Source of the DNA: Cohnella algarum
GTDB taxonomy: Bacteria; Bacillota; Bacilli; Paenibacillales; Paenibacillaceae
Direction: 5' to 3'
Length of the DNA: 64,000 nucleotides
Assembly (NCBI RefSeq): GCF_016937515.1
Contig: NZ_JAFHKM010000002.1
Location: 4,397,001-4,461,000 of the forward strand
The notes under the pieces were generated by a model. The model searched no databases. It was not told where the DNA came from and saw only the letters and a list, made by a program, of their open reading frames with translations. Below are positions 5,817 to 18,432 of the stretch, in pieces. The first letter of the stretch is position 1, and each line of letters begins with the position of its first letter. Made by a program: the position numbers and the translations under genes.

Positions 5817-5842
5817 GTAACTTTTCCTCGGTTTGGATCGTT
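5817..5842 (+). promoter_or_regulatory. Candidate ECF-sigma-like promoter of the ABC operon
   Basis: A GTAACTTTT -35-like element is separated by 17 bases from CGTT. The layout (AAC, 17 bases, CGT) is the same as in the clearer SigW-like promoter upstream of nfeD at 52260. A TATAAT overlaps at 5842-5847 without a good sigma-A -35, so either reading is possible. Confidence 0.4.
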
Positions 5843-5921
5843 ATAATTGATGGAGCCATGGGGAAAGAACTGCATTCGTCGTCAATTTTTGCTATAGGCA
5901 ACAGGGGGAGGAGCCAGAATC

Positions 5922-6707
5922 ATGCGGTCATGGTTGCAGCGAAAAAAAGGTCCCGAGCCGCCGAAATCGATTGCGGCCGTCCTTGAGCCCTCGGAGCGGG
6001 AACAGCCGCCCGACGCCGCTTCCGCGCCGGCGGAGCCGCTTTTGACGGTGCGCGGGGTGGAGCGCTCGTTCGACGTCGGCAGCCAGAAGCTGCGCGTGTT
6101 GAAAGGAATCGATTTGCAGTTATATCCGAAACAGCTCGTCATGCTGAAAGGCCGGTCCGGCTCCGGCAAAACGACGCTGATGAACTTGATGGGCGGGCTC
6201 GATACGCCGACCGCCGGCGAAATTTATTTTCAGGGACGCCCCTTTCACAAATTGGACGACCGTAAGCGAACCGAGGTGCGCCGCAGCGAAATCGGATTTA
6301 TTTTTCAGGCTTACGCGCTGCTGCCGCTGCTGTCGGCTTACGAGAACGTGGAGCTGACGCTGCGGATGGCGGGAGTTCCGAGAACCCAATGGAAAAAACG
6401 GATCACCGAATGCCTGGAAATGGTGGGGCTCGCGAAACGGATGCACCATCGGCCTTCCGAGCTTTCCGGGGGAGAACAGCAGCGGGTCGCGATCGCCAAG
6501 GCGATTTCGCATCGGCCGAGCTTGCTGCTGGCGGACGAACCGACGGCCGAGCTGGATTCGCAGATGACCGCCCAGATTATGGGGGTTTTTCGGGACATCG
6601 TTTCCGCGGAGAAAGTGACGATTTGCATGACGACTCACGATTTGACGATATTGGAGGTTGCAGACCATGTCTATGAAATGGTGGACGGCGTATTCGTATC
6701 CAAGTGA
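5922..6707 (+). CDS. ABC transporter ATP-binding protein (MacB/LolD type)
   Basis: This is the first gene of a six-gene operon. It encodes a 261-residue cytoplasmic ATPase with Walker A GRSGSGKTT near residue 76, the Q-loop in IFQAYALLP, signature LSGGEQQR near residue 180, Walker B LLLADEPT near residue 202 and an H-loop in MTTHD. This is the subfamily that powers FtsX/MacB-type permeases (mechanotransmission rather than substrate channelling), and such a permease is two genes downstream. An unusual basic and proline-rich N-terminal extension of about 40 residues precedes the domain. A GGGGGAGGAG ribosome site precedes ATG 5922. The transported or sensed compound cannot be told from sequence. 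Confidence 0.9.
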   Translation: MRSWLQRKKGPEPPKSIAAVLEPSEREQPPDAASAPAEPLLTVRGVERSFDVGSQKLRVLKGIDLQLYPKQLVMLKGRSGSGKTTLMNLMGGLDTPTAGEIYFQGRPFHKLDDRKRTEVRRSEIGFIFQAYALLPLLSAYENVELTLRMAGVPRTQWKKRITECLEMVGLAKRMHHRPSELSGGEQQRVAIAKAISHRPSLLLADEPTAELDSQMTAQIMGVFRDIVSAEKVTICMTTHDLTILEVADHVYEMVDGVFVSK

Positions 6708-7770
6708 CCGGAAAGGAGCTTGGCGCGGCTCCAAGCGAAAGCTGGCTTCGGCGTTCGCCGTCCTGTCCTTGAGCGCGGCGCTGGCCGGCTGCTCGCTGCT
6801 GCCCGACGAGCCGGAAGAGGAGGACCTGTCGGCGATCCAGCTGCCGCAAATTTCGAAAAAGCCGGAATACGAAGTTACCACGAAGACGCTGGAGACGAAG
6901 GTTCAGGGCACGGGCAAAATCATGTCCGAAGAGGAAAAAACGCTCTACTATACTTCCTCTTCTTTGGAAGGCAAAAGACTCAAAACGCTGTACATATCAA
7001 ACGGCGACGCCGTGAAAGCGGGACAGGTCATCGCCGAACTGGACGTGGAAGATTTGAAAAAATCGCTCCGCAGCCAGAAGCTGCAATTCCGGAAGCTCGA
7101 GCTCGACATGAAAAACACGCTCCGCCAAAAGGACGAAATGGACCCGCTCGAATTCGAGCAAAAGCAAATCGAATTCGAGGAAGCGCGACAGGCGATCACC
7201 GACATGGAGCAGGACATCGCCGCCGCCGTGCTTACCGCGCCTTTCGGCGGAACGGTCGTCTCGGTGAGCGCCGAGGAGGGCAAGCAGATCAAGGCGTACG
7301 ACCCGATCGCGGTCGTGGCCGACACGAGCCGTCTCGTCGTCGCCGCCAAGCTGTCGAGCGACAATCTCGCCAAGGTCGCCGTCGGGATGGAGGTCAAGGT
7401 ATCCATTAATAACGTCGGCGAGCTGACGGGCAAAATCAAGGCGCTGCCCGAGCCGTCGAACGACCAGGAGAATCCGGGCGAAGCCCAGATCGACAAGGTG
7501 AGCAATTATTTGCTCGTCGACGTTCCGGATCTGCCGGCGGAAGCGACGAGAGGAACGCCGCTTACGGCGTCGGTCGTCACCAACCGCAAGGAAAACGCCG
7601 TCGTCATCCCGACTTCCGCGCTGCGAACGATCGGGGCGAGAACGTACGTGCAAGTCGTCGAGGCGGACGGCAGCAAGCGGGAGGTCGATATCGAAGTCGG
7701 CCAGCAGACGTCGACGGACGTCGAAGTGCTCCAAGGGTTGACTCCGGGACAGAAAGTCGTGGGTCGGTAA
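6667..7770 (+). CDS. Lipoprotein membrane-fusion (HlyD/RND-type) adaptor of the ABC system
   Basis: This is an extracytoplasmic adaptor with a lipobox LAGCSLL about 40 residues in, a coiled-coil segment (about residues 130-190), flanking lipoyl/barrel-sandwich halves (a second half around TAPFGGTVVSVSAEEG) and a C-terminal beta-barrel and membrane-proximal domain. Adaptors of this type work with MacB-like permeases, as YknX does with YknYZ in Bacillus. ATG 6667 follows TTGGAGG by nine bases and makes the gene overlap the preceding ATPase by 41 bases, which suggests translational coupling. A second good ribosome site (GGAAAGGAG, 6711-6719) comes after the ATPase stop but has no in-frame start behind it, so the start is not fully certain. 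Confidence 0.85.
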   Translation: MSMKWWTAYSYPSDRKGAWRGSKRKLASAFAVLSLSAALAGCSLLPDEPEEEDLSAIQLPQISKKPEYEVTTKTLETKVQGTGKIMSEEEKTLYYTSSSLEGKRLKTLYISNGDAVKAGQVIAELDVEDLKKSLRSQKLQFRKLELDMKNTLRQKDEMDPLEFEQKQIEFEEARQAITDMEQDIAAAVLTAPFGGTVVSVSAEEGKQIKAYDPIAVVADTSRLVVAAKLSSDNLAKVAVGMEVKVSINNVGELTGKIKALPEPSNDQENPGEAQIDKVSNYLLVDVPDLPAEATRGTPLTASVVTNRKENAVVIPTSALRTIGARTYVQVVEADGSKREVDIEVGQQTSTDVEVLQGLTPGQKVVGR

Positions 7771-7773
7771 GCT

Positions 7774-10629
7774 ATGGGCGCGCTCATTCGTTTTTTATTC
7801 CGAAAAATGTGGAACACCCGCTGGCTGACGCTCAGCACGCTCGCCGGCCTGCTCTTCGCCGTGGCGTTCACGACGAGCATTCCGATGTACGCCGACGGGG
7901 CGCTGAAGCGGGTGGTCGCCCAATCGCTCCAGGACAACAGCGAGGGGCTGCCGGCTGGATCGCTCTTGCTCCGCTACCAATCGACCGACGGAAAGACGGA
8001 TTTGAACAGCTTTGCCGACGCGGACCGTTACATTACCGAAGACGTGCCCGCTTCGATCGGCTTTCCGATCGAAGCGAAGCAGCGCAGCCTGACGATCCGC
8101 AATACGCAGGTTACGCCGGAAGACCCGACCAAGGTCGACGCGAGCCGGACGAGAACGATGACGCTGGCCGCCTTCGGCGGGCTTAAAGACCAAGTCGAGC
8201 TTGCGGGCGGCAAATGGTTCGCGGACCGGGCCGCGGCGGACGGAACGCTGCAGGCTGTCATGATGGAGGAGGCGATGTTCCGCAACGATCTGCATGTCGG
8301 CGACGTGCTGCTCTACCCGATCTATGGCGGATTGAACATTACGCTCCGCGTGGAAATCGTCGGCTCCTACAAGCCGCTCGACGAAACGAGCGCCTACTGG
8401 TATCAGGGGCTTGACAGCCTGATGAACACGCTGTTCATCGCCGACGACGCGATGCTCCAGGACGTTGCCGGCGCGCAAGGCATTCCGCTGCAGACGGCGA
8501 ACTGGTACGCGGCGTACGATCTTCGCGACATCCAGACGAGCCAGCTGTCGGATTTGAGCGCCACGCTTGGCCGGATCGACATCGAAGCGTACCAGAAGCT
8601 GAAAGGAACCGGCGTCGAGCTTTCGTTCGCCGACATGCTGAGCGATTTCCGCCGCGACAGCGTGCAACTGCAGACGATGCTGTTCATGCTCGCGGCGCCG
8701 ATGATCGCGATGGTGTTCTACTTCATTACGATGAACGCCCGCCAATCGCTGGAGAAGCAGCGTTCCGACATCGCGGTCATGCGAAGCCGGGGCGCGGGCA
8801 CGCGGCAAATTTTCATGCTGTTTTTGCTCGAAGGCGTTTTGCTTGGCGCCGTTTCGCTCGTCGCGGGTCCATTCATCGGCTGGTTCATGGCCAAAAGCAT
8901 CGGCTCGGCCAGCGGATTTCTCGAATTCGTCAACCGGAAGGCGATTCCCGTCGGATTCGGAACGGACGGGATTTTGGCCGGAACCGCGGCCGTGCTCGTC
9001 GCCATCGGGGCCGCCGTCATTCCGGCGCTCGTCTTTACGCGGACGTCGATCGTCGACTACAAGCGGAAGATGGCGCGGGCGGACCGTTCGCCGGTATGGC
9101 AGCGCTGGTTTCTCGACGTCGCGCTGCTCGGCGTCGCCGGCTACGGCTGGTACTTGTTCAACGAACGCCAGATGGTGTCGTTCGCGACCGGCGTCACGAC
9201 GGACCAGCTGAACGTCCAGCCGTTTCTGTTTTTCGTGCCGGCGCTCGCGATTTTCGCCGCCGCGCTCGTCTTTTTGCGGCTGTTCCCGCTGCTGCTGAAG
9301 CTGTTCAACTGGATCGGAAAGTCGTTTCTTCCGGTGTCGCTTTACTTGACGCTCACGCAGCTGTCGCGTTCGTCCCGCTCGTATTACCCGCTCATGATTT
9401 TGCTGATATTGACGCTGGGGCTCGGCGTGTACAACGCTTCGGCCGCCCGCACGATCGGGCTCAATTCGGAAGAGCGGATTTTGTACAAATACGGCGCCGA
9501 CGTCATCGTTAAAACGAGCTGGGAAGCAAGCCCGGAATTCGAAGCCCCGTCCGGCGGTTCCGGCGGCGGCGGCCAGGGGCAAGGCGGAGGAGGTTCGGGC
9601 GGCGGCGGCCAGACGCCGACGGTTACCCGGGTCAACTACAACGAGCCGCCGTTCGAAGTGTTCCGCACGCTTCCCGGCGTGGAGCACGCCGCAAGGGTGC
9701 TGCAAACGAAGGCGAACATTACGATTTCCGGGCGAACGGCGGGGCAAGGGACGATCGTCGGCATCGACAACGTCGATTTTGCCCGGGTCGCCTGGTTCCG
9801 CGACGATTTGTATCCGGCCCGTCCGTACAAATATCTCGAATTGATGGGGAAAGCGCCGGAATATGCGCTCGTCAGCTCGAACCTGGCGAACCAATACAAC
9901 ATGAAAGTCGGGGATATCGTGCAAACCGTGCTGCAGGAGCAGCCGGTCGAGTTCGTGGTCGCGGCGATCCTTCCGTATTGGCCCGCCCAATATCCGGACC
10001 AGTCGCCGTTCATCGTCGCCAATCTGGACTACATCTACGACCAGGCGCCGCTTATGCCCTACGACGTGTGGCTGAAGATGGAACCCGACGCCTTGACGGC
10101 TCCGATCATTCCGGTGCTGCAAGAGAAAAGCATCCAGATCGCGTCGATCGACGACGCCCGCAGCGAGCTGATTACCCAGGCGAAGCATCCGGCCCGGGGC
10201 GGCGTGTTCGGCATTTTAAGTCTCGGATTCCTCGTGACGATCATCGTTTCGCTGTCGGGCTACATTTTGTTCTGGTTTTTCAATTTGTCGGGAAGAATCG
10301 TGCAAATCGGGACATTGCGGGCCATGGGCTTGTCGCGCGGGCAATTGACCGGCATGCTGCTTTTGGAGCAGATTTTTACGGCAGGGCTTTCGATCGGTCT
10401 CGGCATCGGCATCGGCAAGGCGACGAGCCTTCTGTTTCTCCCGTTTTTGCAAACGACCGACAACGCCGCCAATCAAGTGCCGCCGTTCAAAGTCGTGTTC
10501 GACAATGCCGACGATTTCCGGCTGTACGGCGTCGTCGGCGTCATGATGGCGATCGGCATCGCGATGCTCGTGACGCATATTCGCCGCTTGAAAGTGCATC
10601 AAGCCGTCAAGCTGGGAGAGGAGCGGTAA
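7774..10629 (+). CDS. Large FtsX-family ABC permease with Gly-rich linker
   Basis: The 951-residue membrane protein has an N-terminal TM helix, a large extracellular domain, an FtsX-like TM block (about residues 305-425), further TM helices (about 450-560), a second extracellular domain and a C-terminal FtsX block (about 815-940). This two-module plan resembles LolC/BceB/MacB relatives, in which the permease couples ATP hydrolysis to movements outside the membrane. A glycine-rich insertion (about residues 593-613, nucleotides 9552-9612) begins the second extracellular domain like a flexible tether. The gene begins three bases after the adaptor stop and ends just before the second ATPase. Substrate unknown: a peptide, antibiotic or lipid are the usual options for the family. 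Confidence 0.88.
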   Translation: MGALIRFLFRKMWNTRWLTLSTLAGLLFAVAFTTSIPMYADGALKRVVAQSLQDNSEGLPAGSLLLRYQSTDGKTDLNSFADADRYITEDVPASIGFPIEAKQRSLTIRNTQVTPEDPTKVDASRTRTMTLAAFGGLKDQVELAGGKWFADRAAADGTLQAVMMEEAMFRNDLHVGDVLLYPIYGGLNITLRVEIVGSYKPLDETSAYWYQGLDSLMNTLFIADDAMLQDVAGAQGIPLQTANWYAAYDLRDIQTSQLSDLSATLGRIDIEAYQKLKGTGVELSFADMLSDFRRDSVQLQTMLFMLAAPMIAMVFYFITMNARQSLEKQRSDIAVMRSRGAGTRQIFMLFLLEGVLLGAVSLVAGPFIGWFMAKSIGSASGFLEFVNRKAIPVGFGTDGILAGTAAVLVAIGAAVIPALVFTRTSIVDYKRKMARADRSPVWQRWFLDVALLGVAGYGWYLFNERQMVSFATGVTTDQLNVQPFLFFVPALAIFAAALVFLRLFPLLLKLFNWIGKSFLPVSLYLTLTQLSRSSRSYYPLMILLILTLGLGVYNASAARTIGLNSEERILYKYGADVIVKTSWEASPEFEAPSGGSGGGGQGQGGGGSGGGGQTPTVTRVNYNEPPFEVFRTLPGVEHAARVLQTKANITISGRTAGQGTIVGIDNVDFARVAWFRDDLYPARPYKYLELMGKAPEYALVSSNLANQYNMKVGDIVQTVLQEQPVEFVVAAILPYWPAQYPDQSPFIVANLDYIYDQAPLMPYDVWLKMEPDALTAPIIPVLQEKSIQIASIDDARSELITQAKHPARGGVFGILSLGFLVTIIVSLSGYILFWFFNLSGRIVQIGTLRAMGLSRGQLTGMLLLEQIFTAGLSIGLGIGIGKATSLLFLPFLQTTDNAANQVPPFKVVFDNADDFRLYGVVGVMMAIGIAMLVTHIRRLKVHQAVKLGEER

Positions 10630-10633
10630 CTTT

Positions 10634-11515
10634 GTGATTACTTGCGAAGGATTGGTCAAAATTTACAAGGCGGACGATCTCGAGGTCGTCGCGCTGCAGG
10701 GGCTGAATTTGGCCGTCGCCCCGGGCGAAATGATGGCCATCATCGGCAACAGCGGAAGCGGCAAGTCGACGCTGCTGAACATTTTGGGCGGCCTCGACCG
10801 CCCTTCGGCGGGCCAGGTGACCGTCGGCCCATGGAACCTGCTCAAGGCGAGCGACGACGATCTCGTGAAATACAAGCGGGAGACGGTCGGCTTTATCTGG
10901 CAGAACAACGCGCGCAATCTGCTGCCCTTTCTGACCGCGCTGGAAAACGTCGAGATGCCGATGATGTTTTCCGGCAAGCTGGACCGGGCTTACGCCAAGC
11001 AACTGCTGGAGTGGGTAGGTCTGAAGGAGCGCATGCACAACAAGCTCACCCAGCTGTCGGGCGGCGAGCAGCAGCGCGTGGCAATCGCGATTTCTTTGGC
11101 CAACAAGCCGCAGCTGCTGCTGGCCGACGAGCCGACGGGATCCGTCGACACGCGGACGTCGGATCTCATCATGGACATTTTCCGGCGATTCAACCGGGAG
11201 CTGGGGTTGACGATCGTCATCGTTACCCACGATCTGTCGCTGGCGAGCAAGGTCGACCGCGTCGTGGCCATCCGCGACGGCCTGACGAGCACCGAATTTA
11301 TCAAGCGGAATCCGAATTTGGACGACGCGCCTCCTCTCGGAGGGGGGTTGAACGAAGAACACGAAGCCTTTGTCGTCGTGGACCGCGTAGGACGGCTGCA
11401 AATTCCGAAGGAGTATTTGCAAGCCCTGGAAATCGGCGACAAGGCGAGCATGGAGTTTGACGGGGAACAAATTGTCATCAAAGCACCGAAACCGATCGAG
11501 GAGGAACCCGCATGA
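10634..11515 (+). CDS. ABC ATP-binding protein fused to a C-terminal AbrB/MazE-like domain
   Basis: This is the second ATPase of the operon, started by GTG 10634. The first 230 residues are a standard MacB-type ATPase: Walker A GNSGSGKST, signature LSGGEQQR near residue 141, Walker B LLLADEPT and H-loop VTHD. After a short linker, residues about 244-285 read VVVDRVGRLQIPKEY then LEIGDKASMEFDGE then IVIKAP, matching the swapped-hairpin AbrB/SpoVT pattern (VDxxGRxxIPxE, L-I-x-x-G-D, I-x-I-K). That fold normally binds DNA in AbrB, SpoVT and MazE; here it could dimerise, bind nucleic acid or regulate the ATPase. Its stop overlaps the start of the next gene by four bases (ATGA), showing coupling. 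Confidence 0.88.
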   Translation: MITCEGLVKIYKADDLEVVALQGLNLAVAPGEMMAIIGNSGSGKSTLLNILGGLDRPSAGQVTVGPWNLLKASDDDLVKYKRETVGFIWQNNARNLLPFLTALENVEMPMMFSGKLDRAYAKQLLEWVGLKERMHNKLTQLSGGEQQRVAIAISLANKPQLLLADEPTGSVDTRTSDLIMDIFRRFNRELGLTIVIVTHDLSLASKVDRVVAIRDGLTSTEFIKRNPNLDDAPPLGGGLNEEHEAFVVVDRVGRLQIPKEYLQALEIGDKASMEFDGEQIVIKAPKPIEEEPA

Positions 11516-13068
11516 AGAACAACCGATTTCGCAAGCTCGCGCTGGCCGGAATAAGCCTGACGCTAGCCGGCACTTTGCTCGCCGCTTGCAGCGGAGGCAA
11601 CGAGACCGACGACCCGAACAACCGCCGTACGCTGCGCATCGGGACGATGTACGGCAGCAGCCAGGACGAACAATATTTCCGCCAGCAATATACCGACCTG
11701 TTCGAATTTACGCACGGCAACATCGACATCGAAATCGTGCCGGCGATCGACTGGACCGAGACGCAGTTCGAGGAGCAAACCCCGGAAACGCAGCAGCCGG
11801 ATCCGCTGGAGAAGGTAAAGGAAATCATGACGGGGCCGAACCCGGTTGACGTCATGATTTTGAACGATTCGAGCATGCTGAGCACGATGGTGCAGGAAAA
11901 TCTGCTCAAGCCGCTCGATCCGCTGATGAAAGAAGACGAAATCGACACCGCCGAATACGTTCCGGCCGTCATCGAAGGCATCAAGGACCTGGGCGACGGC
12001 CAAAATCTGTACGCTCTCGCGCCGACGTACTCGCCTTCCGCGCTTTTTTATAATAAGAAGATGTTCAGCAACCTCGGCATCACCCCGCCGACGAACGGCA
12101 TGACGTGGGAAGAATTGTTCAACCTGGCGCGCCAACTGAAGACCGGCGAAGGCCAGGATGCGACGTTCGGGTTCACGTTCAACCAATGGGGCTACAGCAA
12201 CGGCTATTACGATCTGACCAGCTTCGCCGCGCCGCTGCAATTGAAAATGTTCGACGAAAAAGGCGAAACGATGACGATCAATACGCCGCAATGGAAAAAC
12301 GTATGGACGACGTACACCGATCTGTTCAAGGAAAAGGTGCTCCCGTCGCAGGAGGATCTCGTGTTCGAGCAGCCGGCGACCGACGGACCGTACCGCTACA
12401 ATCCTTACGAGCAGCAGCCGTTTTTCCGCGGCAAAGTCGCGATGGTCATCGGCTCGTACAGCATGATCAGCGAAATCGACACGTTCAACCGCAACGTAGA
12501 CAAGTTCGAAAACATGGAGGCGCTCGATTGGGATGTCGTGTCCGTGCCGACGTTCGCGGAAGCGCCCGGGATCAGCGGATATATTTATATGAATACGCTC
12601 GCCGCCATCAACTCGCAGGCTCCGAATCCGGACGACGCCTGGGAATTCGTCAAGTTCATGAACGGCAAGGAGTGGGGCAAGCTGCGGGCCCGCAGCAGCT
12701 ACGAGCTTCCGTCGCTGATCGAATACGCGAAGCCAAAGGAAGGCATGAGCTACAACATGGAAGCCTTCACGACGACGAAGCCGATTCCGCAGCAAAATTT
12801 GGCGGTCTACACGAAACTGTATCAGGAACGTCCGAATTTGAACCTGATCGATTCGCTCGCCAATACCCAGTACAACAAAGTCGTCAACGGCGAAATGTCG
12901 GTAGAGGAAGCGCTCGCCGAATTCGAGACGAAGGGGAACGAACTGCTGCAGAAAATCAAGCTGACGCCGAACGGTCCGATCGAAGGCGTCAACGACGACG
13001 TGTACGGCGGAGGAGGCGGTCCGATTCTTTACGACTCGGCTACGTCTGCCGCGGTTGCAGTCGGCTGA
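11512..13068 (+). CDS. Extracellular solute-binding lipoprotein 1
   Basis: This is a 518-residue lipoprotein with a signal peptide and lipobox LLAAC (Cys26), followed by a family-1-type solute-binding fold of the kind used for sugars and oligosaccharides. The mature N terminus DDPNNRRTLRIG is shared almost exactly with the downstream paralog at 13154, as are the GPNPVDV and FYNK segments. It is translationally coupled to the ATPase-AbrB gene. Solute-binding proteins normally serve importers, yet this operon encodes an FtsX-type permease with an adaptor and no importer-type permease. The pair may therefore act as ligand sensors or substrate carriers for the export-type machine. A terminator-like hairpin follows the gene. 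Confidence 0.85.
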   Translation: MKNNRFRKLALAGISLTLAGTLLAACSGGNETDDPNNRRTLRIGTMYGSSQDEQYFRQQYTDLFEFTHGNIDIEIVPAIDWTETQFEEQTPETQQPDPLEKVKEIMTGPNPVDVMILNDSSMLSTMVQENLLKPLDPLMKEDEIDTAEYVPAVIEGIKDLGDGQNLYALAPTYSPSALFYNKKMFSNLGITPPTNGMTWEELFNLARQLKTGEGQDATFGFTFNQWGYSNGYYDLTSFAAPLQLKMFDEKGETMTINTPQWKNVWTTYTDLFKEKVLPSQEDLVFEQPATDGPYRYNPYEQQPFFRGKVAMVIGSYSMISEIDTFNRNVDKFENMEALDWDVVSVPTFAEAPGISGYIYMNTLAAINSQAPNPDDAWEFVKFMNGKEWGKLRARSSYELPSLIEYAKPKEGMSYNMEAFTTTKPIPQQNLAVYTKLYQERPNLNLIDSLANTQYNKVVNGEMSVEEALAEFETKGNELLQKIKLTPNGPIEGVNDDVYGGGGGPILYDSATSAAVAVG

Positions 13069-13089
13069 CGCAACAGGGTAGCGAAACGT

Positions 13090-13131
13090 CGCCGCGCAGT
13101 CAACCGACGGGGCGGTCTGCGCGGCGTTTTT
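13090..13131 (+). terminator. Terminator/attenuator between the two solute-binding genes
   Basis: A perfect ten-base stem (CGCCGCGCAG and its complement) with a 17-base loop is followed by five T residues, 22 bases after the first lipoprotein gene. It would reduce read-through into the second. Confidence 0.8.
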
Positions 13132-13153
13132 ACAAGGATAAGGGGGAATTTTC

Positions 13154-14701
13154 TTGCGCTCATTTCTTCGATTACATACGTTGAAGTCGCTGTCCGTCGT
13201 GCTCGTTTTGTCCGTCGTCGCCGCTCTCGCCGCCGCGTGCAGCGGAGGAGACGCGTCAGACGATCCGAACAATCGCCGCACGCTGCGCATCGGCATGGTT
13301 TCGGGCAGCCAGGACAGCGAATCCTATTACCGTCAGGAATACACGGATATGTTCGAACTATCCAAAGGGAACATCGACATCGAATTCCAATATGCGACCG
13401 ACTATTCGGAGATGATGTACGCTTCGGAAGAGGAGCAAAAGGAATTTCAGCAAATCGATACGTACGAACGGCTCAAGGAAATGCTGACGGGACCGAATCC
13501 GGTCGACGTGCTCGTCACCGATCAGGGAACGATGGGCCGGCTGATTCAGGATAATTTGCTCGTTTCGCTGGATTCGTACATCAAGAAAGACAAAGTGGAT
13601 TTGGAAGCGTTCGTGCCGTCCGTCATCGAAAGCATCCGGGAGGCGGGCAACAACCAGGTTTACGGGCTGACCTCTACGTTCAGCTCCAGCGTTTTGTTTT
13701 ACAACAAGACGTTGTTTTCGAAAGCGGGCGTCACTCCGCCGACCGACGGGATGACGTGGGACCAAATTTTCGACCTGGCCACTCAAATGAGCACGGGAGA
13801 GGGCGCCGAGCGGATATTCGGATTGACGTTGAACGACTGGAACTCCGAATTGAGCATGTACAGCGTCAATAACATCGTCGCCCCGCTGAAACTGAGGATG
13901 TTCGACGACAAGGCCGAGACGATGACGGTCAATACGCCGCAGTGGGAACGGGCCTGGGAGCGCCCGATCGAGCTGGCGCAGCAAAAAGTGATTCCGAGCG
14001 CGGAAGATTTCGTGGAGGAGATGCCCGCCGACGGCAACTACCGCTACAATCCGTATTCGAACCGTCCGTTCTTTACGAACCGCGTCGCCATGATGATCAG
14101 CAACAATTACCTGATCAACGAGCTCAAGACTTATAACGATAACGTAGACAAAATGGAAAATTACGAGCCCCTTGATTGGGATGTCGTCACCTACCCGGTG
14201 CTTCCGGAGATGCCGGAAGCGAGCAGCGGGATGTACCTGGGCGAAGTGATGGTGATCAACGCCAACGCGGCCAATGCGGACGATGCCTGGGAGTTCATCA
14301 AGTTCAGCACGAGCAAGGAAACGGCCAAATTCAAGGCAAGAAGCACGTACCAGATGAGCTCGCTGACCGAGTTCGTCAAGCCTCTCGACGGCATGGCCTA
14401 CAATATCGAGGCGTTCTACAAGCAAAAGCCGATTCCTTACGAGTATAATCAGGCCGAGCAAAGCCTTTATCGGGAACGCCCCAACCTGGGCTATATTCAG
14501 CAACTCGGCGACCAATCGTTCCAAAAGGCGGTCCGCGGCGATTTGGGCGTCAAGGAAGCGCTGCAGGAATGGCAGGAAAACGGCAACGAGCTGCTGCAGG
14601 AAATCAAGCAGAACCCGACCGGGGAGATCGATCTTACGCCTTATTTGGGCGATCAGGAAGCGATCCAGAGGGAAATGCTCCGTCGGGCGTCGGGAGGCTG
14701 A
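13154..14701 (+). CDS. Extracellular solute-binding lipoprotein 2 (paralog)
   Basis: This 515-residue paralog of the preceding gene has a signal peptide with a lipobox ending at Cys29 (ALAAAC), the shared mature start DDPNNRRTLRIG and the same solute-binding fold. The ligand-facing middle and C-terminal parts differ more, so the pair may bind different ligands. The start is TTG 13154, with AAGGGGGA six to seven bases upstream. It lies behind a terminator hairpin, so it is either expressed at a lower level through read-through or from a promoter I could not identify. No permease gene follows. The next feature downstream is a 54-residue hypothetical protein. Confidence 0.84.
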   Translation: MRSFLRLHTLKSLSVVLVLSVVAALAAACSGGDASDDPNNRRTLRIGMVSGSQDSESYYRQEYTDMFELSKGNIDIEFQYATDYSEMMYASEEEQKEFQQIDTYERLKEMLTGPNPVDVLVTDQGTMGRLIQDNLLVSLDSYIKKDKVDLEAFVPSVIESIREAGNNQVYGLTSTFSSSVLFYNKTLFSKAGVTPPTDGMTWDQIFDLATQMSTGEGAERIFGLTLNDWNSELSMYSVNNIVAPLKLRMFDDKAETMTVNTPQWERAWERPIELAQQKVIPSAEDFVEEMPADGNYRYNPYSNRPFFTNRVAMMISNNYLINELKTYNDNVDKMENYEPLDWDVVTYPVLPEMPEASSGMYLGEVMVINANAANADDAWEFIKFSTSKETAKFKARSTYQMSSLTEFVKPLDGMAYNIEAFYKQKPIPYEYNQAEQSLYRERPNLGYIQQLGDQSFQKAVRGDLGVKEALQEWQENGNELLQEIKQNPTGEIDLTPYLGDQEAIQREMLRRASGG

Positions 14702-15069: not shown

Positions 15070-15237
15070 ATGCGAAGAATGCCGTTGACGGCGGAAACCG
15101 CGCAAAAGCTTGCCGAACATTTGAAGGTGCCGCTCGAGCATCTGATGCATATGCCGCAGCATATTTTGCTGCAGAAGTTGGCGGAAATGGCAAAGGCCGA
15201 TGCGGCCTCCGGCGGAAACGTCAAAAAGGAGGAATAG
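15070..15237 (+). CDS. yycC: YycC family small protein
   Basis: This 55-residue cytoplasmic protein contains the run EHLMHMPQHILLQKLAEM, which matches what I recall of the Bacillus YycC family (about 50 residues, with an MHMP-HIL core). Its function is unknown in the family. ATG 15070 is preceded by AGAAAGGGGCGGGAG. It lies between the hypothetical 54-residue gene and a tRNA cluster that has its own promoter. The assignment rests on the conserved core and the matching length. Confidence 0.68.
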   Translation: MRRMPLTAETAQKLAEHLKVPLEHLMHMPQHILLQKLAEMAKADAASGGNVKKEE

Positions 15238-15352: not shown

Positions 15353-15429
<77 letters not shown>

Positions 15430-15458
15430 AACTTAAACCTCAAACGGACTTCAGACGA

Positions 15459-15535
15459 GGGCCCTTAGCTCAGTTGGTTAGAGCGGTCGGCTCATAACCG
15501 ATTGGTCGGGGGTTCAAGTCCCTCAGGGCCCACCA
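15459..15535 (+). tRNA. tRNA-Ile2 (CAU, lysidine type)
   Basis: This 77-base cloverleaf has acceptor GGGCCCT, CAT anticodon in GGCTCATAACC, GGTTCAAGTCC T arm and encoded CCA. The acceptor and D arm resemble the Ile2 tRNAs whose C34 is converted to lysidine by TilS more than elongator tRNA-Met of Bacillus. Elongator Met is the alternative. Confidence 0.8.
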
Positions 15536-15693
15536 CTGAGGATGCAAGCAGCGATGCAAAGGCGAATGCGAATCGTCTCTACTTCCCAAGCCGGTTAACG
15601 GCATCAAGCGGAAGGAGGCGTTTTTTTGTTTGTGCGGGAAACGGGCGCGAACGGCGGAAAGTCGGGCGCGGAAAGCGGGCCAATGATAAAAAG

Positions 15694-15714
15694 AACGCCC
15701 CGAAGGGCGTTTTT
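15694..15714. terminator. Bidirectional terminator between tRNA pair and small minus-strand gene
   Basis: AACGCCC, a CGAA tetraloop and GGGCGTT are flanked by A-rich and T-rich sides, so it works on both strands. It ends the tRNA pair and also the small minus-strand gene at 15754. The rest of 15536-15690 shows no further feature. Confidence 0.8.
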
Positions 15715-15753
15715 GACAGGCTGCGTTGAATGCGGGAATTGCGAATTGAGAGA

Positions 15754-15855
15754 TTAGAGGGATAGCGGATTTCTGCGTCTCCGATGCTTGCAAATGATAA
15801 TCGCTTTTTGACCGGGGCGGAGTTTGACGACGATCGTTTTTCTCCTCAAAGACAT
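15754..15855 (-). CDS. Hypothetical basic micro-protein, 33 residues
   Basis: A 33-codon minus-strand frame starts at ATG 15855 eight bases after an AAGGTGGT ribosome site and ends before the bidirectional terminator. The product (core VVKLRPGQKAIIICKHRRRR) is very basic at its C terminus and has a short beta-like segment VVKLRPGQK. A TATACT sits just upstream on the same strand. The combination of ribosome site, possible -10 and terminator supports a real small gene of unknown role, perhaps a nucleic-acid binder. The region 15856-15990 holds no other gene that I can see. Confidence 0.45.
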   Translation of the reverse strand: MSLRRKTIVVKLRPGQKAIIICKHRRRRNPLSL

Positions 15856-15992
15856 CGTAAGCCACCACCTTTCAGCTTCATAGTATAGTTTATGATGGAA
15901 GAAGAGGATGGCTTGGACGAAATCATTCGCAGATTCCCCCATTCTTGCGCGCCCGCTCTGCCATTGCTGGGGGAAGCCGGCCCGCGATTTTG

Positions 15993-16021
15993 TTGACGCG
16001 TATGCCCGGACGTGGTAATAT
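15993..16021 (+). promoter_or_regulatory. Sigma-A promoter of tRNA-Leu
   Basis: TTGACG, a 17-base spacer and TAATAT are present. The tRNA begins about 80 bases downstream, leaving a 5' leader to be removed by RNase P. Confidence 0.65.
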
Positions 16022-16102
16022 GTAGAACGTTGATCGTTTTCGAATGGTCGATTTCGCGGTTGGCGGAATACGCGCCAATGCGCGCGGCAGCGCGATTTTC
16101 GC

Positions 16103-16191
16103 GCCGGGGTGGCGGAACAGGCAGACGCACAGGACTTAAAATCCTGGGGGTGGTGACACCCGTACGGGTTCGATTCCCGTCCTCGGCACCA
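16103..16191 (+). tRNA. tRNA-Leu (UAA)
   Basis: This is an 89-base class II tRNA with acceptor GCCGGGG, anticodon TAA in GGACTTAAAATCC, a long variable arm (GGGTGGTGACACCC) and encoded CCA. Confidence 0.95.
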
Positions 16192-17421: not shown

Positions 17422-17497
17422 TGGTGATCTGAACAGGGATCGAACCTGTGACCCCCACCCTGTCAAGATGGTGCTCTCCCAGCTGAGCTATCAGATC
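17422..17497 (-). tRNA. tRNA-Val (GAC), copy 1
   Basis: This 76-base cloverleaf has acceptor GATCTGA, anticodon stem CCATC/GGTGG with loop TTGACAG (anticodon GAC) and encoded CCA. It is identical in sequence to the copy at 18357. Confidence 0.93.
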
Positions 17498-18356: not shown

Positions 18357-18432
18357 TGGTGATCTGAACAGGGATCGAACCTGTGACCCCCACCCTGTCA
18401 AGATGGTGCTCTCCCAGCTGAGCTATCAGATC
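18357..18432 (-). tRNA. tRNA-Val (GAC), copy 2
   Basis: Its 76 bases are identical to the copy at 17422. It has GAC anticodon and encoded CCA and lies behind a consensus promoter. Confidence 0.93.

Follow-up and report, generated by a model that had tools for sequence, protein, structure and literature searches.

Motors of the FtsX type perform mechanical work on the outer side of the membrane, and solute-binding proteins (SBPs) are a hallmark of ABC importers. Among the machines with such permeases, YbbAP-TesA is not known to have an adaptor or an SBP, and BceAB(S) has one outer domain (between transmembrane segments TM7 and TM8), a homodimeric ATPase and a histidine kinase partner. The MacAB/YknWXYZ systems (PMC5985334) have a dimerizing 4-TM permease and one ATPase gene or domain, and are not known to carry an SBP.

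The DNA analyzed here, called the window throughout, is a stretch of 64,000 nt from Cohnella algarum (contig NZ_JAFHKM010000002.1, positions 4,397,001-4,461,000, forward strand). Its positions 5922-14701 are filled by six ORFs, all on the same strand. A preliminary description had proposed a six-gene operon there, and the ORFs, their Pfam families and their tight spacing confirm it. Among the listed matches to open-access papers on the gene set or on Type VII systems, the portions of text available hold no account of this set. PMC12838199 was discarded as a relevant MacB paper: in the portion available, "MacB" is the name of a strain.

Table 1. Features of the operon and its promoter candidate, in window positions
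Feature	Positions	Strand	Basis
ECF-sigma-type promoter candidate GTAACTTTT-N13-CGTTATAAT	5817..5847	+	motif count upstream of relatives' operons
ATPase 1	5922..6707	+	ABC_tran (Pfam 1.1e-33)
HlyD/MacA-type membrane-fusion adaptor	6667..7770	+	HlyD_D23 (Pfam 2e-14), lipobox LAGC
FtsX-type permease, 951 aa, 10 TM	7774..10629	+	FtsX (Pfam 1.7e-18, two stretches)
ATPase 2	10634..11515	+	ABC_tran (Pfam 4.3e-32)
AbrB-like C-terminal domain of ATPase 2	11360..11512	+	profile vs 1z0r
SBP1, family-1 solute-binding lipoprotein	11512..13068	+	SBP_bac_1 (Pfam 2.7e-26)
SBP2, SBP1 paralogue (50%)	13154..14701	+	SBP_bac_1 (Pfam 2.2e-22)

The operon and its proteins

The adaptor ORF opens at TTG 6658. The alternative start at ATG 6667 is the most likely one because GGAGG lies at 6653-6657, and given this start the ATPase 1 and adaptor genes overlap by 41 nt. 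Farther along, 3 nt separate adaptor and permease and 4 nt separate permease and ATPase 2, ATPase 2 and SBP1 overlap by 4 nt, and 85 nt lie between the two SBP genes. Among the NCBIfam matches listed, RND_mfp (to the adaptor) was the sole one to pass its own cut-off.

The permease is internally duplicated, with 10 TM-like stretches and large outer domains between TM1 and TM2 and between TM7 and TM8. PF02687 matches it twice, and with its TM core plus outer domain it belongs to the Type VII (FtsX/MacB superfamily) permeases. It has neither the single outer domain of BceAB nor the 4-TM, one-outer-domain layout of YknXYZ/MacAB. In fold comparison the predicted model matched YbbP best and BceB second best, with YtrF among the closest and LolC/E and MacB also matching; YbbP was absent from the 17 sequence matches at E ≤ 10. 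The single ATPase gene and TesA-type hydrolase of YbbAP are absent here, there being two ATPase genes and no such hydrolase among the six proteins by Pfam. From the families involved, the operon would encode a machine of the Type VII class, working by mechanotransmission.

Both ATPases retain the catalytic motifs. The Walker A (with its Lys in ATPase 1), the signature, the Walker B Glu and the H-loop His are invariant in the 13 aligned rows of ATPase 1 and the 14 of ATPase 2. ATPase 2 had been described as fused to an AbrB-like domain, and this was borne out at the level of the family: the profile of the tail family hits the PDB entry of B. subtilis AbrB (1z0r, E = 5.7e-6) and assigns the tail to the SpoVT-AbrB swapped-hairpin fold, whereas the window copy alone gives only a MazE_antitoxin match (E = 0.02) under Pfam's cut-off, as do other single family members. 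The motif of the tail is present in 125 of 132 ATPase 2 ORFs (duplicate loci included) and by eye in 6 of the other 7, the ORF of L183 being truncated. AbrB binds DNA through the Arg pair R23/R24. In the window ATPase 2 this pair is replaced by Leu-Gln; none of 30 aligned tail rows has both Arg residues, and a few (L088, L121, L123, L125, L128 and L188, among others) keep one. The likely role of the tail is to join two machines or to hold a partner in the cytoplasm. A role of the operon in anti-phage defense was also considered and rejected: the ATPases gave generic ATPase matches only, and the other four proteins gave none.

By inspection, the adaptor, SBP1 and SBP2 each carry a lipobox. The lipobox cysteine is kept in all 45 aligned downstream SBPs, 39 of which match the lipobox pattern. 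The SBP_bac_1 match and the predicted two-lobed sugar-binding-protein fold place the SBPs in family 1. The pair noted in the preliminary description is indeed a pair of paralogues here, but the second arose by duplication within Cohnella, as the SBP tree shows. A further secreted protein, mostly of 690-1060 aa and, among those scanned, matching DUF4352 or Ig-like domains weakly, is also encoded in 16 of 65 loci with a downstream SBP, 1 of 7 with an upstream SBP and 2 of 60 without an SBP; the host genome has a 34% relative of it elsewhere, without the promoter motif.

Importer-type permeases had been reported absent, and we likewise found no BPD_transp_1 (PF00528) match in the six proteins at E ≤ 0.01; the permease of an SBP-dependent importer is therefore missing from the system. 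The host genome has 151 BPD_transp_1 matches. Among the strongest of these, which were listed, none lies inside the window and the closest are at 4245593 and 4518430, the window spanning 4397001-4461000.

Conservation and history of the SBP partnership

A strong permease relative (E ≤ 1e-140) is present in 162 of 197 same-family genomes, twelve weak rows being left out; at E ≤ 0.001 the count is 174 of 197, or 166 of the 189 good-quality genomes. All 20 loci fetched by the permease alone, which span 16 genera (four loci from the genus of the window and two from another), encode ATPase 1, adaptor, permease, ATPase 2 and SBP in this order on one strand; L052 has an extra SBP gene between those for permease and ATPase 2. 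Since the order including the SBP is the same in every locus and SBP1 has 24 matches in total in the host genome, the grouping is more than chance. The set is a stable unit, as had been supposed, and does not match an SBP-dependent importer. The neighborhood is not simply frozen, because the flanking genes differ among loci: glutaminyl-tRNA synthetase in the window, carbamoyl-phosphate synthase plus a chemoreceptor gene in P. gorillae (L178), orotidine decarboxylase in L140 and an HD gene in L088.

Further loci came from searches of class, phylum and order and from 80 named loci of at least 516 relatives in a genome-contig scan; none of the 80 listed is from Actinobacteria. L101 and L102 were dropped as relatives (a 27% FtsX match, or no permease match), and L157, which lies within L149, was left aside. 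Removal of seven duplicates and of L121, in which a stop splits the permease frame, reduced 140 loci to the 132 rows of the permease tree.

In this tree (made by a quick method) a single clade, supported at 100%, unites the 65 loci with a downstream SBP and the 7 that have it upstream; the 60 permease loci without an adjacent SBP all fall outside it. A careful 47-row tree gave the same split, 25 versus 22, with 100/100 support and in all 200 bootstrap trees. When the gene maps were recounted, an SBP adjoined the core in 65/65, 7/7 and 0/60 loci, respectively, and the core was complete throughout the SBP clade. Beside the permease of the 60 SBP-less loci stand ATPase 1 (48 loci), the adaptor (59) and ATPase 2 (52), some loci being cut by contig ends, and in at least seven (L151, L195, L207, L216, L220, L222, L230) SBP genes lie farther along. 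Other neighbors in SBP-less loci include S-layer-domain, GFO/IDH, GH42 and kinase/regulator genes (proteins of L155, L206, L196 and L230 only).

Within the clade the lipoproteins are dedicated partners of the machine: an SBP gene adjoins the core in 72 of 72 members, and SBP genes that are dispersed or linked with sugar importers, which would have made the grouping accidental, were not seen there. The core evidently can do without an SBP, because 60 of 132 relatives have none adjacent.

In the SBP tree 45 of the 46 downstream SBPs cluster together as a clade (92/85); the remaining one, L184_down2, is a distant SBP from the L184 locus. The upstream SBPs group with five other host-genome SBPs (100/98). 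The partner can thus be swapped, since the subclade with upstream SBPs carries an SBP of another lineage. Over 65 loci the distances of SBP and permease correlate with r = 0.89; the values are 0.68-0.88 for pairs of core proteins and 0.74-0.83 for the SBP with the adaptor and ATPases.

Promoter motif and candidate regulon

An unplanned count of 9-mers found GTAACTTTT upstream of ATPase 1 in 47 of 65 operons, and CGT(C/T) follows it at an almost constant spacing in each of them except L163. When the motif is counted in a strict form (12-14 bases between the halves) over the 2.3 kb before the permease gene, 46 of 65 loci with a downstream SBP have it and 19 lack it, and it occurs in 0 of 7 with an upstream SBP and 0 of 58 without an SBP, these being the ones among the 60 with enough upstream sequence. 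The 65 loci contain 49 strict sites in 2,448,202 bases, counting both strands. The window has a single match (Table 1) versus 0.01 expected. The shuffle controls used for the 9-mer count, for the strict count over the loci and for the glycosyltransferase loci below preserved base composition, not dinucleotides. No plus-strand sigma-70-type site was found between 5600 and 5922. An AAC -35 element and a CGT -10 element at ECF spacing make up the ECF-sigma promoter consensus, which the motif fits and on which the ECF label rests; for a sigma-W consensus the literature searched, including the available part of PMC3498285, gave no citable sequence. The motif suggests that an envelope-stress ECF sigma factor probably activates the operon.

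Elsewhere in the host genome there is one more exact site, with no visible gene start behind it. Across 59 family genomes the bare pattern occurs 0 to 5 times per genome, in most cases once or twice, and many of these genomes also contain matches to its reversed control; single extra sites carry little weight because of this recurrence and these control matches. Ten extra sites were chosen by hand as recurring or as coming from genomes without the operon. Two of the ten (two genomes, one genus) precede an LCP-family gene and three a GT2 glycosyltransferase gene, Pfam covering four of these five proteins, and the other five (L303, L304, L307-L309) have no assignable gene start within about 0.45 kb. 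The GT2 glycosyltransferase is present in 40 of 40 genomes (41 matches). Among the 30 of these matches listed, 3 have a strict site, 9 a looser one (0.1 expected) and 21 neither. The envelope-regulon link rests on few other genes.

A proposed envelope machine and its relation to known systems

The analysis establishes the gene set, its order and history, the predicted folds and the promoter motif; assembly, ligand, direction and regulation we infer. We see roughly an even chance that the system as a whole is a Type VII motor tuned by its SBP that acts outside the membrane and does not import. The YbbP-like duplicated permease would form the base of such a mechanotransmission machine, and the two different ATPases, presumably one for each permease half, would drive its two extracytoplasmic domains. 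The lipoprotein adaptor and the dedicated family-1 SBP lipoprotein would work at the outer face. There the SBP may bind a glycan, or an envelope polymer or precursor that bears one, dock on the outer domains of the permease or on the adaptor and so tune the ATPase cycle. The ATP-driven motion would then serve glycan handling or the activation of an envelope protein, and the ligand would stay outside.

An exporter that pushes a glycan, glycolipid or lipoprotein-borne polymer out via the adaptor, with the SBP as an outer chaperone catching the product, we consider unlikely. The adaptor is of the HlyD/MacA type, the matches include MacB and LolCDE, and two candidate regulon genes belong by family to those that make or attach glycan polymers. 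However, the folds that match best are those of YbbP and BceB, two 10-TM proteins neither of which to our knowledge has been described as an export channel, and we know of no SBP that is an exporter subunit. Slightly less probable is a system of the BceAB or YtrBCDEF kind that senses or detoxifies antimicrobials acting on the cell wall, the SBP being a decoy or sensor: the six proteins include no kinase or regulator by Pfam and the SBP fold is of the sugar-binding type, although BceB and YtrF are among the closest folds, the promoter candidate is of the ECF type and the B. subtilis ytr operon, which encodes two ATPases, influences the thickness of the wall and is responsive to lipid II antibiotics, according to the part of PMC8060467 available. 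The SBP could also be an orphan receptor, merely co-transcribed here, for a sugar importer that is encoded elsewhere and uses a shared ATPase such as MsmX. Its family-1 fold and the many importer permeases of the genome would allow this, but the unbroken linkage in the clade, the co-divergence of SBP and permease and the changing flanks (the tRNA synthetase, the pyrimidine and chemoreceptor genes, the HD gene) make it very improbable. A true importer, in which the FtsX-type permease passes the ligand of the SBP inward, has little beyond the presence of an SBP to recommend it and is hardly credible given the adaptor, the many relatives without an adjacent SBP and a YbbP fold for which we know of no import path.

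The SBP-tuned motor remains our preferred reading, and the interpretation in the preliminary description is partly supported. It is possible, if somewhat short of even, that a Type VII motor recruited an importer-type SBP lipoprotein once and permanently, giving an envelope machine gated by glycans and regulated by an ECF factor, with two ATPases that differ from each other and a cytoplasmic coupling domain derived from AbrB. The pairing of an envelope motor with a sugar-binding lipoprotein in the Cohnella/Paenibacillus group suggests an ATP-driven machine that senses or handles extracellular glycans, perhaps as a direct sensor of glycan or wall polymer. So long-lived and strictly inherited a union would widen the Type VII repertoire and, if the reading is true, would open a new route from extracellular sugar to mechanical work or signal. 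The two halves of the duplicated permease can be mutated independently, which also makes the system a test case for ATPase asymmetry, and the promoter motif points to a candidate regulon for the search for function.

Among known systems, family-1 sugar importers (MalEFGK type) share the SBP fold, but their BPD_transp_1 permease has no counterpart in this set. YtrBCDEF of B. subtilis resembles it in two ATPase genes, an FtsX-like subunit and an envelope role, as given in the accessible part of PMC8060467, but has separate YtrC and YtrD membrane proteins, its FtsX-like protein being YtrF and not a family-1 SBP. MacAB/YknWXYZ has in common a MacA-like adaptor, an FtsX permease and an ATPase; the misfit to that exporter type noted in the preliminary description stands, but the nearest relative is to be sought elsewhere. 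BceAB(S) shares the 10-TM FtsX permease. In the portions of its description available, the Type VII system YbbAP-TesA of E. coli has the same 10-TM duplicated permease with outer domains at TM1-2 and TM7-8, and differs in using a single ATPase gene twice and in its lipase partner. Judged by the predicted fold, the nearest architecture is that of YbbAP and BceB, not that of MacB/YknZ.

Candidate promoter and operon variants

A candidate ECF-type promoter, GTAACTTTT-N13-CGTY, is conserved in the window and among the upstream regions (46 of 65 in strict form) of the relatives in which a gene encoding a family-1 solute-binding lipoprotein (SBP) lies downstream of the core genes (ATPase 1, adaptor, permease and ATPase 2). 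This candidate was absent from the preliminary description. The motif is missing from a subclade of relatives (loci L096-L098, L154, L160, L188 and L190) having an SBP from another lineage, the gene of which is upstream of ATPase 1. A partial tandem copy at locus L047 contains the candidate promoter, an ATPase-2 remnant that retains the C-terminal AbrB-like tail, and a second SBP. A further copy of the motif having one mismatch is found in the host genome 5' of a lipoprotein gene, which gave a sub-threshold match to DUF4349.

Neighboring genes

A secreted Ig-like protein of about 690-1060 residues is encoded directly 3' of the SBP in some relatives (L089, L090, L095, L145-L147, L162, L164, L167, L175 and others), and its host-genome counterpart is unlinked to the operon. 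At L155 a core without an adjacent SBP adjoins genes matching the S-layer-domain and GFO/IDH families, together with a GH127 match that fell below the cut-off. The SBP-less cores of L216, L222, L223 and L227 have neighbors resembling those of L155, the locus among these five that was scanned for families.

Other elements

A motif search gave short elements of the GGGTAA-TTTTACTCA-GCGCGG kind that recur in the host genome.

Coordinates of the features (G000:C2, host genome; L256, a host-genome stretch)
Feature	Position	Remark
Candidate promoter	window 5817-5847	
One-mismatch promoter copy with its lipoprotein gene	L256:1500-2271	near G000:C2:4346582
Partial tandem copy	L047:10702-12685	
Ig-like protein counterpart	G000:C2:1098102-1099967	
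Small YycC-family gene	window 15070-15237	3' of operon
Two tRNA-Met, one tRNA-Leu	window 15353-16191	
tRNA-Val(GAC), two genes	window 17422-17497 and 18357-18432	about 0.9 kb apart; same Rfam score
GGGTAA-TTTTACTCA-GCGCGG-type element	near G000:C2:936683, 1839118 and 2339017
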